Of a stretch of DNA of 30,448 bases, positions 10,024 through 30,448 are shown piece after piece. This DNA comes from a virus. Position 1 is the stretch's first letter. Each line of letters starts with the position of its first letter. Where the stretch lies: IMG/VR virus record IMGVR_UViG_3300037336_000068, positions 1 to 30,448 of that record; one strand, given 5' to 3'. The translations under genes and the position numbers were made by a program. The notes under the pieces were generated by a model. The model saw only the letters and a program-made list of their open reading frames with translations. It had not been told where the DNA came from and made no database searches.

Positions 10024-10273
10024 AAATAAAAGCCTCTATGTTGTCAATAATGTGAACAATAGCGCCTTTGCTTTGCATTTTTGTAATAGTGTGCTGCTGA
10101 TAAACACTAGGCTTTTTACCCAAAGCTTTAAACTCAACGAAAACAACCGATCCGTTTTTAATGTAAAGCCTGTCGGGTACGCCCCTTTGTGAAGGGCTAG
10201 AAAACTTATAGCCTAGCCAACCGTTATCCTTCGCCCATTTACTGCAACTTCTTTCAATAGTAGATTCACGCAT
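10010..10273 (-). CDS. VRR-NUC domain nuclease
   Basis: The 87-residue protein is a minimal VRR-NUC domain of the PD-(D/E)xK superfamily: GVPDRLYI (D34), VFVEFKALGKKP (E47, K49) and YQQHTI (Q59/Q60). The acidic residues and the lysine form the metal-dependent nuclease site. Related phage proteins cleave branched DNA such as Holliday junctions. It overlaps the helicase gene downstream and the polymerase gene upstream, so it is part of the replication and recombination module. Confidence 0.9.
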   Translation of the reverse strand: MRESTIERSCSKWAKDNGWLGYKFSSPSQRGVPDRLYIKNGSVVFVEFKALGKKPSVYQQHTITKMQSKGAIVHIIDNIEAFIYVMS

Positions 10274-12053
10274 TAAAACCGACCCCTTTTAACAAATCGT
10301 TTGCATAATCTATATAGCGATCATAATTAACATCATCGGGGAACACCGCTGGCAATGTCATCAATGGTTTTCCACCGTTTGACTTTGGGACTTTGTTGCC
10401 GTTTTTTATATATTCAATGTTTATATTATCATCAACTTTAGCGCTGTAATAAAACCGCACCGCTTTGCCTAAAAACTCACCTTGCCACTTTGCGCCACCA
10501 GTAACCTTTCTCAGCGTAACAAACTGGCGTATGTCATTGCACTCGCGTATGGTTTTAGCAATAGGTGTTTGGTTCGCTAAAAACTCAGAAACAGCGGTAA
10601 AACATATATTGCAATCAGGGTTTTTAGATAAGCCACCGTTTGCAAAAGTGCCTTTTCTTTTAACCTGATTATCAGTTGTAACCGCTAAGTAATTATTTAC
10701 ATCACGACTCGCTAATAATTTGTAATGTGTTTCTTCTAGCTCGTAAGAAGTATCAAGCATCCAATCAAAACAAATATTTCTTAATTCATCTAGTTCATCT
10801 TTTTTACACTTAACTACGATGCCGTCAGTGTTAGCGCTGTACACTGTAAAGCCTGCGCCTTCAAACTGTTCAATTAACATCAACAGACATAGTTGCCCGG
10901 TAATTGTTGTCTGTAATAATAAATCAGGCGCGTAAAGTGCCGACCATTTAGAGCCTAATTTGCCGAAGCTGCCGTTAACGCATATTTTAAGCGTATCTGC
11001 TGTGACTTTATCGCCTGCTCGTTTTGCTTGTATGCGCCTATCAACAATTGATTGATACACTCTTAAAAAAGGCAAGCCCATGCTCTTGGGCGCAAGTGAC
11101 TGCTGTAGTATTATGTTTGGGTAATAACTAGCAACGTCAACCTCTAGCAAGCACTCACCGCTATTCACGCGCACTAGTTGGGACTTCTCACAGCTATGCA
11201 GGCCACCAATACCCATTTGATACTCAGCCCCACCAATTTTAATCTTAGTATCTGCTAACTCTTTAGGCATTTTAACCGCACCATTTAAGCCCAAAGAAAA
11301 GCGCATTTTTAGCAAGGTATCAAATATTGATGTTAGTTGCTGACTTTTAAAAGATACAATTTTAGGGTTCTGATACTTAAATTGCATACCATGAGGCACA
11401 TCTGGCTTTTTGTAAGTTTTGCCGGTTTCTTTTTGTAGTTCTGATTTAATCACCGTCTCGGCTATTTGTGCGTCAGACTTGCTGCGTAAATCCATGCCGT
11501 ACTGCTCAGACATTGAGACACGCAAAGCGATTTGTTTTGATAATGAGTCAAACAATTCTTTTGTAGTAGTTAAATCATTAACGCAATAATCGCGCAAGTC
11601 TTTGTGTTGCTCTGGTGTTATTGTCGCGCTTGGCTCAATAGGTAGGTCTTGAATGGTTTTAGAGTTGAGCCGGCCACCGTATATTTTTAAACTTGATTGA
11701 CCGGGCGCGACTTCTATAATGTCGATGTGATCCCAATCATCAGGTACACGCAAATCCATATCTTTAGTAATAGCCCAGCTTGGCTGATTACTTGTAATTA
11801 TTTTATCGCATAAGTCTTTTAATTTATCAACAGGCCAACCCTTTAACGCGGCCGCAATAATAGGTAAATCAAAACTATTACCGTTAAAACTAACGGTTGT
11901 TTGCGTAGACATTAACCGAAGTAATGTTTTTTTATCGAGTGGCTTACCTTCGTAAAATTCAAAATGTTTGACTTTATTAGTGGAAGTACTTAAAGCAGAA
12001 AGCAGGAAGTAATTTTTATAAATTTCAACGTCTATTATGTATTGTGTTTTCAT
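10266..12053 (-). CDS. Compact family B DNA polymerase with 3'-5' exonuclease
   Basis: The 595-residue protein has all three exonuclease motifs: D8-V-E10, N57...D62 in SFNGNSFDLP, and Y156...D160 in YCVNDLTTTKEL. The polymerase domain has motif A EVDVASYYPNII (D306), motif B KICVNGSFGKLG (K356, N360) and motif C YSANTDGI (N408-T-D410). This is family B, not family A. Motif C keeps the second, essential aspartate, but the first is Asn. At 595 residues it is short for the family. A TPR2 insertion typical of protein-primed enzymes is not obvious. It is the replicative polymerase of this phage, next to an SNF2 helicase, VRR-NUC, DUF2815 and DUF2800 proteins. Confidence 0.85.
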   Translation of the reverse strand: MKTQYIIDVEIYKNYFLLSALSTSTNKVKHFEFYEGKPLDKKTLLRLMSTQTTVSFNGNSFDLPIIAAALKGWPVDKLKDLCDKIITSNQPSWAITKDMDLRVPDDWDHIDIIEVAPGQSSLKIYGGRLNSKTIQDLPIEPSATITPEQHKDLRDYCVNDLTTTKELFDSLSKQIALRVSMSEQYGMDLRSKSDAQIAETVIKSELQKETGKTYKKPDVPHGMQFKYQNPKIVSFKSQQLTSIFDTLLKMRFSLGLNGAVKMPKELADTKIKIGGAEYQMGIGGLHSCEKSQLVRVNSGECLLEVDVASYYPNIILQQSLAPKSMGLPFLRVYQSIVDRRIQAKRAGDKVTADTLKICVNGSFGKLGSKWSALYAPDLLLQTTITGQLCLLMLIEQFEGAGFTVYSANTDGIVVKCKKDELDELRNICFDWMLDTSYELEETHYKLLASRDVNNYLAVTTDNQVKRKGTFANGGLSKNPDCNICFTAVSEFLANQTPIAKTIRECNDIRQFVTLRKVTGGAKWQGEFLGKAVRFYYSAKVDDNINIEYIKNGNKVPKSNGGKPLMTLPAVFPDDVNYDRYIDYANDLLKGVGFNA

Positions 12054-27318: not shown

Positions 27319-27720
27319 ATGAGTGCAGGAATTGGAATTGTCGGACGTAATGTATTAATGACTATGGCAACACAGACGCTTCTTGGTGTTCGTGTTAAGG
27401 GTTTAACTTTAAACAACGAGCGTTTAGACACTACGGACGACAGCACAGCAGGGTGGGCGGAAGCCTTTGCCGTTGCAGGGCGTAAAAACGTAGAGTTTAG
27501 TGTAAGCGGATTGGTGAAAAACCTTGAGCTTGTACGCGCTTACTTTGCTAGTGAATCGCAAATCTTTGCAGTGTTGCTAACTTACCCGGACGGCTCTACC
27601 GTTGCCGGTGATTTCTTTTACGACTCAATGAATCCAACTGGCGAAGAAAATACACTGGTTACTTTTGACGCTTCGTTTAGCTCAAGCGGTCCGGTTGTGT
27701 TTACGGCTGGTGTTGCTTAA
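27319..27720 (+). CDS. Major tail tube protein (TP901-1 type)
   Basis: The 133-residue protein has RVKGLTLNNERLDTTDDSTA, VSGLVKNLELVRAYF and DFFYDSMNPTGEENTLVTFD, a small beta-barrel pattern typical of siphophage tube proteins of the TP901-1 group. The segment NNERLDTTDDSTAGW is typical of the strand that stacks tube rings. No sheath gene was seen, so the tail is not contractile. The stop overlaps the start of the chaperone gene. Confidence 0.85.
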   Translation: MSAGIGIVGRNVLMTMATQTLLGVRVKGLTLNNERLDTTDDSTAGWAEAFAVAGRKNVEFSVSGLVKNLELVRAYFASESQIFAVLLTYPDGSTVAGDFFYDSMNPTGEENTLVTFDASFSSSGPVVFTAGVA

Positions 27721-28076
27721 TGTCAGCAATTAACAAAACGCTAAAGATTAAGTTTAAAGGCGTAGACCATAGCATAAAAATGTCAATGGCTATTATTGAC
27801 GCGGTTGAAGATGAAATGAACCTTGTTGCATTTATCAACCGCTTAAATAAGGGCGATGTGCGGCTTAGTCATGCGGCTAAATTATTTGCTATCATCTTGA
27901 TACAGTCAGGCGTAAAGACTTCACAAGAAGACGTTTACACCGCTATGTTTACAGGTGAGGATGACAACGTTAAGGGCGTAATAGAGGCATGTAGCGCAAT
28001 CATAAGCGCAATATTCCCTCAGTCAGAAGTTACAAACGTTGCAAAAAAAAAGCCAGTGACGGCGCGAAAGCGGTAG
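27720..28076 (+). CDS. Tail assembly chaperone, upstream frame (G-like)
   Basis: The 118-residue protein begins MSAINKTLKIKFKGVDHSIK and contains AIIDAVEDEMNLVAFINRLN and LFAIILIQSGVKTSQEDVYT, matching gene-transfer-agent gp11-like tail chaperones (TAC_11 type). It ends AKKKPVTARKR. Near its end lies A AAA AAG in the correct frame, so ribosomes that slip back make a 189-residue fusion with the next frame. It lies between tube and tape measure genes, the standard place for the lambda G/GT pair. Confidence 0.85.
   Translation: MSAINKTLKIKFKGVDHSIKMSMAIIDAVEDEMNLVAFINRLNKGDVRLSHAAKLFAIILIQSGVKTSQEDVYTAMFTGEDDNVKGVIEACSAIISAIFPQSEVTNVAKKKPVTARKR
28046..28052 (+). promoter_or_regulatory. Probable -1 ribosomal frameshift site (A AAA AAG)
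   Basis: Nine A lie at 28043-28051, followed by G. In the zero frame this reads AAA AAA AAG, so the heptamer is A AAA AAG, the same slippery site as in E. coli dnaX. After a slip back by one base the frame stays open through 28288. A short CGC-GAAA-GCG hairpin follows at about 28063-28072. No strong upstream Shine-Dalgarno-like stimulator is obvious. Confidence 0.85.
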
Positions 28077-28288
28077 AAGATTATGATTGGGCGATGCTAT
28101 ACAAAACAATAGTTGTAAAGTGTAACATTGCCCCATCTGAATATTGGCAAATGTCACCCGCTGAATGTTGGCATATTATAGACGCAAATACGCCTGAAAA
28201 AACATACGGCAATCTTAGACAGTCAGAGCTAGACGACATGATGGAATTTAGGCAATCACTTTTAGATCAGGGGTATGAATTAGCATGA
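28052..28288 (+). CDS. Tail assembly chaperone, downstream frame (T-like, made by frameshift)
   Basis: This is the -1 frame read after the slippery site: residues begin ASDGAKAVEDYDWAMLYKTI, then SEYWQMSPAECWHIIDA and LDDMMEFRQSLLDQGYELA. The SPAEcWhI pattern resembles the DUF2376/TAC_6 chaperones. An internal ATG at 28094 has no good ribosome site, so the fusion is the preferred product: 111 residues of the upstream frame plus 78 here. It would bind the tape measure protein in assembly. The stop overlaps the tape measure start (ATGA). Confidence 0.75.
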   Translation, partial: ASDGAKAVEDYDWAMLYKTIVVKCNIAPSEYWQMSPAECWHIIDANTPEKTYGNLRQSELDDMMEFRQSLLDQGYELA

Positions 28289-30249
28289 AGCTTGGTCAGT
28301 TAGAAGTTGAGGTTACAGCAGACGATACAAAACTTAGACGCGGCTTAAAAAGTGCCGACAATTCTATTGCTAATACAGCTAAAAAAGTAGGCGCATTGGC
28401 TGCGGGCTTTGCTAAGTTTGCCGCTGTTGCCGTAACTGCTGGCGCTGCTATAGGTGTTGCTGTAGTTAGAAGCCAGTTACAGCAGATTGACGCACTCGCT
28501 AAAACATCTGCATTATTAAACGTCACCATCCAAGACTTACAAGGCTTACGCTTTGCTGCTGAACAATCAGGTGCAAGCGCGGGCGTACTTGATAAGGCAT
28601 TAGAGCGATTAACTAGAAACATCGGCGAAGTACAAGGCGGCACAGGCGAGGCTAAGAAAGCATTTGACGCGCTAGGTTTGTCAGCGGTTGAACTTGCAAA
28701 GATTAGCCCTGCTGATGCGCTAGGGACGGTTGCAACGGCATTACAAGGTGTAGAAAGCAACTCACAGCGCGTAAACTTTGCTTATCAAATACTAGGTCGC
28801 TCAGGCACGCAGCTTGTAAACATGCTTGCTAATGGTGAAGCAGGATTAAACGCATTTAAACAAGAGGCGCTTGATTTAGGTTTAACACTTGACGAGGTTG
28901 ATGCGGCTAAAGTTGAAGCGGCAAACGATGCACTAAACAGAATACAAAAAGTAATTCAAGGCGCTTTGCAACAAGCCACCGTTGAACTTGCGCCATTCAT
29001 TGAGGATATAGCGGCACGCTTTGCAGATGTTGCTAAAGAGTCGGGCGGCATGGGTCATGTTGTGGTTGGTGTTATGGAAAGTATTGGTAAGGCAATTGCA
29101 TTTGTTGCGGATGCTGTTGGCAGTATTGGTATTGCGTTTAAAGGTATTCAGATTGTTATTAAAGGCTTTGAGGTTTTTGTTACTGGTGCGATGCTTCGAG
29201 CAGCAACAGCAGTTGAGGGCGTAATTGAAGGCATTTTAAAAGGTGTCAACCTTGCTATATCAGGATTGAATAAATTACCAAAGATTGATATCGCGCCAAT
29301 TAATGAAAATGTTTCAATTGGTGTTGATAAGCTAACAAAGTCATTTGATGAATCTAGCTTGGCACTATTTAGGTTAAGCCAAGAAATAATTGAAGCGGGC
29401 AACGCTGAGCCATTAGGCGATAAAGTAGCGGCGTGGGCTAAAGGTATACGTGAAACACTAGACAATCCTATTGTAGTTACACCAAACGCAGACCTTGACG
29501 AGCAAGCCGGCCCTGATAGAACAGGCGTAAATGATGCTTCACTTGAACAGCTTAGGCAGTTAGGTAAAAGTAAACTTATATTAATACAAGAGCAGGAAGA
29601 TGAACGGCTCGCATTATTAGAAGTATTAAACGAAGAAGAATTAGAAAGAATTGGTGGTTTTGAAAGCGCAAAAAACAGAATAATATTAGACGCAGAAGAG
29701 CAACGTAAGCTTGAAAAAGAGTTAAGTGAAGATGAAATTACACGAATTGAAAGGGAAGCGGCAAAAGAAAGAGAAGAAATAGCATTTGCAGAGCAACAAG
29801 GGAAAATACGAGCCGTAGGTGATGCATTTGGTCAACTTGCTAGCATAATGAACACTGGTAGTCGTAAGTTATTTAAGATTGGAAAGATTGCAGCTAAAGC
29901 TGGCGCTATTGTTGACGGTTTTGCAGCAGTACAAGGCGCCATTAAAGCAGGTAACAAAGTTGGTGGACCAATAGTAGGAGCTGCTTTTGGTGCAGCTGCG
30001 GCAATTCAAACAGCGGTGCAAGTTAGAAACATAAACCAAGCACAATTTGGTGGCGGAGGGGGCAATGCAACATCCTTCAGCGGTGGACAGCCTGCCGTAA
30101 GAACACAAGAAGCAGCGCCGGCACCATCGCGTAATGTTAGCATAAACTTACAAGGCCAAAACTTTAGCGCTGAACAGGTTCGCGGCTTGATAGGTCAGAT
30201 TAACGAACAGATTGGCGACGGTGTACCTGTTATGATTGGCGCAGGTTAG
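28285..30249 (+). CDS. Tape measure protein
   Basis: The 654-residue protein begins MKLGQLEVEVTADDTKLRRG, the common N-terminus of siphophage tape measures. An Ala-rich region follows (AKFAAVAVTAGAAIGVAVV), then LQDL/LGRSGTQLVNMLANGE segments, a hydrophobic stretch near 265-310, a long charged helix (about 395-510) and a Gly/Ser-rich end. By the known rule of about 0.15 nm per residue, the tail would be about 100 nm (inference). Its last 267 residues are the counterpart of the fragment at 1-810. The start overlaps the chaperone stop. Confidence 0.9.
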   Translation: MKLGQLEVEVTADDTKLRRGLKSADNSIANTAKKVGALAAGFAKFAAVAVTAGAAIGVAVVRSQLQQIDALAKTSALLNVTIQDLQGLRFAAEQSGASAGVLDKALERLTRNIGEVQGGTGEAKKAFDALGLSAVELAKISPADALGTVATALQGVESNSQRVNFAYQILGRSGTQLVNMLANGEAGLNAFKQEALDLGLTLDEVDAAKVEAANDALNRIQKVIQGALQQATVELAPFIEDIAARFADVAKESGGMGHVVVGVMESIGKAIAFVADAVGSIGIAFKGIQIVIKGFEVFVTGAMLRAATAVEGVIEGILKGVNLAISGLNKLPKIDIAPINENVSIGVDKLTKSFDESSLALFRLSQEIIEAGNAEPLGDKVAAWAKGIRETLDNPIVVTPNADLDEQAGPDRTGVNDASLEQLRQLGKSKLILIQEQEDERLALLEVLNEEELERIGGFESAKNRIILDAEEQRKLEKELSEDEITRIEREAAKEREEIAFAEQQGKIRAVGDAFGQLASIMNTGSRKLFKIGKIAAKAGAIVDGFAAVQGAIKAGNKVGGPIVGAAFGAAAAIQTAVQVRNINQAQFGGGGGNATSFSGGQPAVRTQEAAPAPSRNVSINLQGQNFSAEQVRGLIGQINEQIGDGVPVMIGAG

Positions 30250-30448
30250 TGCTATAATAATGCAGCAAAACAAATTAAGGGCTTAAAATGACAAACCTAG
30301 TCGATGACATAGTATTAAATGGCGTCCCACCGGCGGGGACTGTTACGCCTGTAGATGTACAAAGCATTGCAGTACCAACCGCATTAAATAGAGTTTCAGC
30401 GGGTAGCGTGGCAGTGCCTAAAAACTTAGCGCCAGAAACCTTTGTACC
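29449..30448 (+). repeat. Diverged terminal repeat, right copy (left copy 1-1009)
   Basis: Matches 1-1009 with many substitutions and a 9-base net length difference. Homologous points are 29448 bases apart at the left end and 29439 at the right end. Identity is high at both borders and low in the middle of the tape measure part. Confidence 0.9.
30288..30448 (+). CDS. 14-residue-repeat tail protein, second copy (3' end cut by window)
   Basis: The translation begins MTNLVDDIVLNGVPPAGTVT and is the counterpart of the gene at 849-1328. The first 24 codons differ at several positions, and from 30362 to the end all 87 bases are identical to 923-1009. AAGGG precedes the ATG in both copies. The frame is open at the window end, so the full length is not known. 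Confidence 0.8.
   Translation, partial: MTNLVDDIVLNGVPPAGTVTPVDVQSIAVPTALNRVSAGSVAVPKNLAPETFV

Follow-up and report, generated by a model that had tools for sequence, protein, structure and literature searches.

Directly between its major tail protein gene (5') and its tape measure gene (3'), the virus studied here carries two short reading frames that overlap, and the question is how the second of them is expressed. The DNA analysed, referred to below as the window, consists of one virus record, 30,448 bases in length. We find that a G/GT-type programmed -1 ribosomal frameshift on A_AAA_AAG is the probable source of both products (probability roughly 0.93), judging from comparison of the sequences, and that two tail assembly chaperones would thereby share a single start. 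The majority of ribosomes would terminate at 28076 and release a 118-residue G-like protein, and a minority would slip back by one base and make a 189-residue GT-like fusion that includes a TAC_6 domain. On the model of lambda, the part shared by both products would coat the tape measure protein and the rarer TAC_6 part would recruit subunits of the major tail protein, after which both chaperones would leave. The product ratio and the role in tail assembly are what we infer from lambda.

The slip site and the proteins it would join

The features of the locus are collected in Table 1. The run of nine A's (A9) spans 28043-28051 and is followed by a G at 28052. The zero-frame codons here are GCA (28041), AAA (28044), AAA (28047) and AAG (28050), followed by CCA and onward to TAG at 28074-28076, such that ORF1 ends in GCA AAA AAA AAG CCA GTG ACG GCG CGA AAG CGG TAG. 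A_AAA_AAG lies in the zero-frame phase required for tandem slippage, 21 bases 5' of the ORF1 stop codon. A second heptamer, A_AAA_AAA (28043-28049), overlaps it, and a slip at either one yields the identical fusion. Between 27995 and its TGA at 28286-28288 the -1 frame has no stop, and that TGA overlaps the tape measure ATG as ATGA. These positions agree with a preliminary description of the locus, which had correctly placed an in-frame AAA AAA AAG at 28044-28052 and a -1 frame open to 28288. When all in-phase X_XXY_YYZ heptamers in the genes of the window were counted, 64 were found, and the one at 28046-28052 is the only one that opens a long new -1 frame; at T_TTG_GGG (2225), for example, the -1 frame just enters the next gene. 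A screen of the window for a phage tRNA gene bearing on Lys decoding found none.

Table 1. Features of the tail chaperone locus in the window.
Feature	Position	Strand	Basis or remark
Major tail (tube) protein gene	27319..27720	+	PF06199, E 6e-12; PHROG 1407 major tail protein
ORF1, short tail assembly chaperone (G-like), Phage_TAC_11 / GTA-gp10 type, 118 aa	27720..28076	+	PF11836
Predicted frameshift fusion protein (GT-like), 189 aa	27720..28288	+	Conceptual translation
Slippery heptamer A_AAA_AAG	28046-28052	+	Sequence; inside A9G (28043-28052)
-1 frame extension (T-like), Phage_TAC_6 domain, 78 aa	28052..28288	+	PF09550
Predicted RNA hairpin 3' of the slip	28085..28137	+	z-score -2.99, 88-nt fold; function not supported
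In-frame ATG of the -1 frame, rival start	28094..28096	+	Judged not a real start
Tape measure protein gene	28285..30249	+	PHROG 9483 tape measure, E 1.4e-143

Both halves of the predicted fusion resemble tail chaperone families, each with a score just under the curated cut-off. ORF1 matches Phage_TAC_11 with an E-value of 3.3e-6 and 27.5 bits (cut-off 27.8), as well as the tail protein family PHROG 2115, and the extension matches Phage_TAC_6 with an E-value of 1.2e-4 and 22.8 bits (cut-off 23.4). At an E-value of 0.01 or better the two models are matched by 16 and 30 of 31 family members, respectively. We predict that the TAC_6 extension is produced solely in fusion with ORF1, and by conceptual translation the junction reads ...VAKKK-ASDGAKAVEDYDWAM... 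in that product. In the predicted structures the slip falls in a low-confidence linker between two helical domains (ORF1 residues 102-118), which is predicted to be disordered, and the first TAC_6 helix begins at residue 13 of the -1 frame. Searches of solved structures by sequence and by fold matched no tail chaperone; given that the models have a pLDDT of about 76, this result is uninformative.

Two other observations concern the window as a whole. Its ends, 1-1009 and 29449-30448, are two copies of one region, covering the end of the tape measure gene together with the gene after it. The copies are about 76% identical in DNA, and the alignment of these terminal repeats of about 1 kb reaches each end of the contig exactly. 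Such repeats point either to a circularly permuted genome of about 29.4 kb, assembled across two strains, or to a tandem pair. On the minus strand, 10266-12053 encodes a 595-residue phage DNA polymerase (PHROG 1252, E 8.5e-191), which matches the Pfam family B polymerase model very weakly.

Conservation among viral relatives

Relatives were gathered from viral contigs, searched with the protein, with an alignment of the fusion and with the TAC_6 part, and four GenBank phages were added, which gave about 65 distinct loci in 37 clusters at 70% identity. The search pattern behind most of these loci was restricted to TAC_6, and the presence of a slippery site thus gave a locus no advantage in the search. 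Included in the clusters are the isolated phages Oceanospirillum phage vB_OliS_GJ44, Idiomarinaceae phage 1N2-2, Alteromonas phage PB15 and Vibrio phage 1.144.O, at 22-27% identity to the window protein. Vibrio phages K303 and GH32, reached via the tape measure protein, have no recognisable TAC_6 motif and were left out of the set.

The layout of the locus is the same throughout this set. Relative to ORF1, TAC_6 is always shifted by -1 and never by +1 (37 of 37 clusters), and every cluster has an in-phase X_XXY_YYZ heptamer within the overlap. Synonymous-codon shuffles of the overlaps would lead us to expect such a heptamer in 12.3 of the 37, and the log10 P of finding it in all of them is about -21, an approximation in that the clusters are taken as independent. 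The density of heptamers is 0.063 per codon in the overlap and 0.0048 in the rest of ORF1, a 13-fold difference. The preliminary description had asked whether A_AAA_AAG itself is conserved, and this turns out to be only partly so: it is the commonest heptamer (19 clusters), but the remainder use other in-phase heptamers, namely G_GGA_AAG (7), A_AAA_AAA (5), C_CCA_AAG (2), G_GGA_AAA (2), A_AAA_AAC (1) and G_GGA_AAC (1). Closer to the window the site is fixed. GCA AAA AAA AAG is invariant in the window's clade, against variation in all eight codons just 5' of it; of the 9 other Lys codons in ORF1, 6 vary while A9G does not.

With a slippery site in all 37 clusters and TAC families on both sides of it, the making of G and GT chaperones by frameshifting at this tail locus, as the preliminary description had proposed, is the best explanation. 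Separately, in one viral contig (L048, 1432-3081) the TAC_6 frame has no stop and apparently continues into the next gene, possibly a natural fusion or an assembly error.

Other routes to the second product

The fusion could also arise by slippage of RNA polymerase on A9 (transcriptional realignment), with or without a share from the ribosome, and we regard this as unlikely. Runs of nine A's do slip in bacterial transcription (PMC5009743), A9 is the only A or T run of at least nine bases in the window, and several other clusters have at least eight A's. Against this, 14 of the 25 A-type clusters have merely six or seven A's before the last base of the heptamer, 12 of the 37 clusters use G_GGA_AAN or C_CCA_AAG, and what unites them all is the phasing of X_XXY_YYZ, a rule of ribosomal slippage. 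Because many relatives have short A-runs or none, polymerase slippage is rejected as the general mechanism, and the comparison argues strongly that the ribosome is what slips. In the phage studied here, polymerase slippage may make some additional contribution.

A second possibility is that the -1 frame is a separate gene, translated from the ATG at 28094 or by ribosomes that re-initiate once past the ORF1 stop, which would give free TAC_6 and no fusion. There is an in-frame ATG 17 bases past the ORF1 stop, annotators have drawn separate genes in the GenBank records of GJ44, PB15 and 1.144.O, and in several alphaproteobacterial GTA-like loci TAC_6 begins at an ATG overlapping the ORF1 stop. 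However, when every ATG, GTG and TTG was counted, none of the 37 viral clusters had a start at least 17 residues ahead of the conserved PSEFW motif, and 11 had no start at all before it. In the window the ATG is residue 15 of the -1 frame, two residues inside the first predicted TAC_6 helix, with no Shine-Dalgarno match close 5' of it, and a separate start would leave the universal heptamer unexplained. With no start preceding the TAC_6 core in any cluster, and none whatever in 11 of them, independent initiation of TAC_6 is very unlikely to be the general rule. For the window we give it only a slight chance, and the start at 28094 is rejected on the grounds that starts are missing family-wide. 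The product from this ATG that the preliminary description had set against the fusion is accordingly not a general option in the family.

The cellular relatives show where a separate start may apply. Our sample consisted of 20 chromosomal loci from alphaproteobacteria, one Hyphomicrobiales MAG and one Bordetella locus, and the upstream ORF in them is named by its g10 position. As in alphaproteobacterial GTA g10 / g10.1, TAC_6 follows the g10-position ORF in the same order as in the window, usually in the -1 register. In about 10 of the 20 loci TAC_6 begins at an ATG of its own, mostly one that overlaps the ORF1 stop as ATGA, and there is no slippery site; about 6 have an in-phase heptamer (C_CCT_TTY, G_GGA_AAA or G_GGA_AAC) and no close start, and 4 are unclear. 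The pair of TAC_11-position ORF and TAC_6 can, it seems, be expressed without slippage in GTA-like lineages, since about half of the cellular loci provide that ATG, but not in the viral set examined. Relatives that keep both frames and lack the slippery site, which the preliminary description had named as one observation that would refute frameshifting, are absent from the 37 viral clusters but do occur among these remote alphaproteobacterial loci. These GTA-like loci do not overturn the case for the phages. Within the alphaproteobacteria, loci with the ATGA overlap (L082, L083, L088, L091, L094, L096 and L100) stand beside loci with C_CCT_TTY and no close start (L086, L087, L089 and L093), a split which hints that the frameshift was lost or replaced.

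That the overlap is a coincidence, or one gene split by a homopolymer indel in sequencing or assembly, is hardly credible: homopolymers are prone to indel errors and the contig ends look chimeric, but the identical two-frame layout in independent contigs and in four isolate genomes, with differing heptamers and run lengths, refutes it.

Comparison with known systems

The heptamer of the window is that of dnaX, where it is assisted by an upstream Shine-Dalgarno stimulator. The dnaX site also has a downstream stem-loop and reaches about 50% frameshifting (PMC5009743). Neither stimulator is conserved at the window site. No upstream Shine-Dalgarno-like motif is conserved across the relatives, and no downstream structure shared by them was seen. 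The hairpin predicted in the window folds better than shuffled sequences, buries the ATG at 28094 and is largely retained in the window's clade. Its covariation across five sequences is no better than in shuffles (311/500), and we reject it as a stimulator on this ground and because it lies about 36 nt downstream of the slip. The dnaX-type cassette of Shine-Dalgarno and stem-loop is thus not found here, and the site is dnaX-like in its heptamer only. This bears out the preliminary description, which had seen no obvious stimulator. Its statement that the heptamer is the most efficient known is fair for E. coli (PMC5009743), but the rating is that of E. coli and may not be that of the host.

Tail chaperones of HK97-like phages, taken from a survey of A-rich heptamers, gave 6-7% frameshifting in reporters (PMC3711429), and a survey of RcGTA-related phages found such a frameshift to be usual in tail chaperone genes (PMC8601537). 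A_AAA_AAG within A9 may raise the share of fusion far above the few per cent known from tail chaperones, perhaps with both ribosome and polymerase slipping there. This lineage would then build its tails at a different G:GT ratio, and frameshifting may have been given up by some domesticated GTA relatives, with TAC_6 becoming a gene of its own. We offer this idea tentatively and think it rather doubtful. The natural series of heptamers, together with GTA-like relatives that seemingly swap slippage for a start codon, could serve as a test of how important the G:GT ratio is.

Isolated phages have the layout of the window, with A_AAA_AAG in GJ44, 1N2-2 and 1.144.O and with C_CCA_AAG in PB15, where a TAC_11-position ORF is likewise followed by TAC_6 in the -1 frame. 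None of the GenBank records examined for these TAC_11/TAC_6 phages shows a fusion; in that of 1N2-2 the TAC_6 frame has no gene, and the paper on GJ44 nowhere mentions a frameshift. In genomes of this type, gene-calling programs will overlook the fusion and give a truncated TAC_6.

One of the closest parallels is the G/GT pair of lambda, which slips by -1 on G_GGA_AAG, a heptamer also used by some TAC_11/TAC_6 relatives. Its product ratio of 30:1 and the roles of both products have been reviewed (PMC5009743). The window is like lambda (PMC5009743) in the order of major tail protein, chaperone and tape measure, in the -1 direction, in a slip close to the end of the first gene and in a C-terminal domain that appears only as a fusion, and unlike it in its protein families (TAC_11/TAC_6) and in its slip site (A_AAA_AAG). 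Four sequence traits of a G/GT system are present: an in-phase heptamer shortly before the first gene ends, a conserved slippery site, an overlapping -1 frame without a proper start, and a position between the major tail protein and tape measure genes. Tail chaperone frameshifting is in this way extended to marine and other environmental phages with chaperones of the GTA-type TAC_11/TAC_6 families. By the comparative sequence evidence this appears to be a new and strongly supported case of tail chaperone frameshifting, ordinary in kind and an instance of a well-known phage trick.
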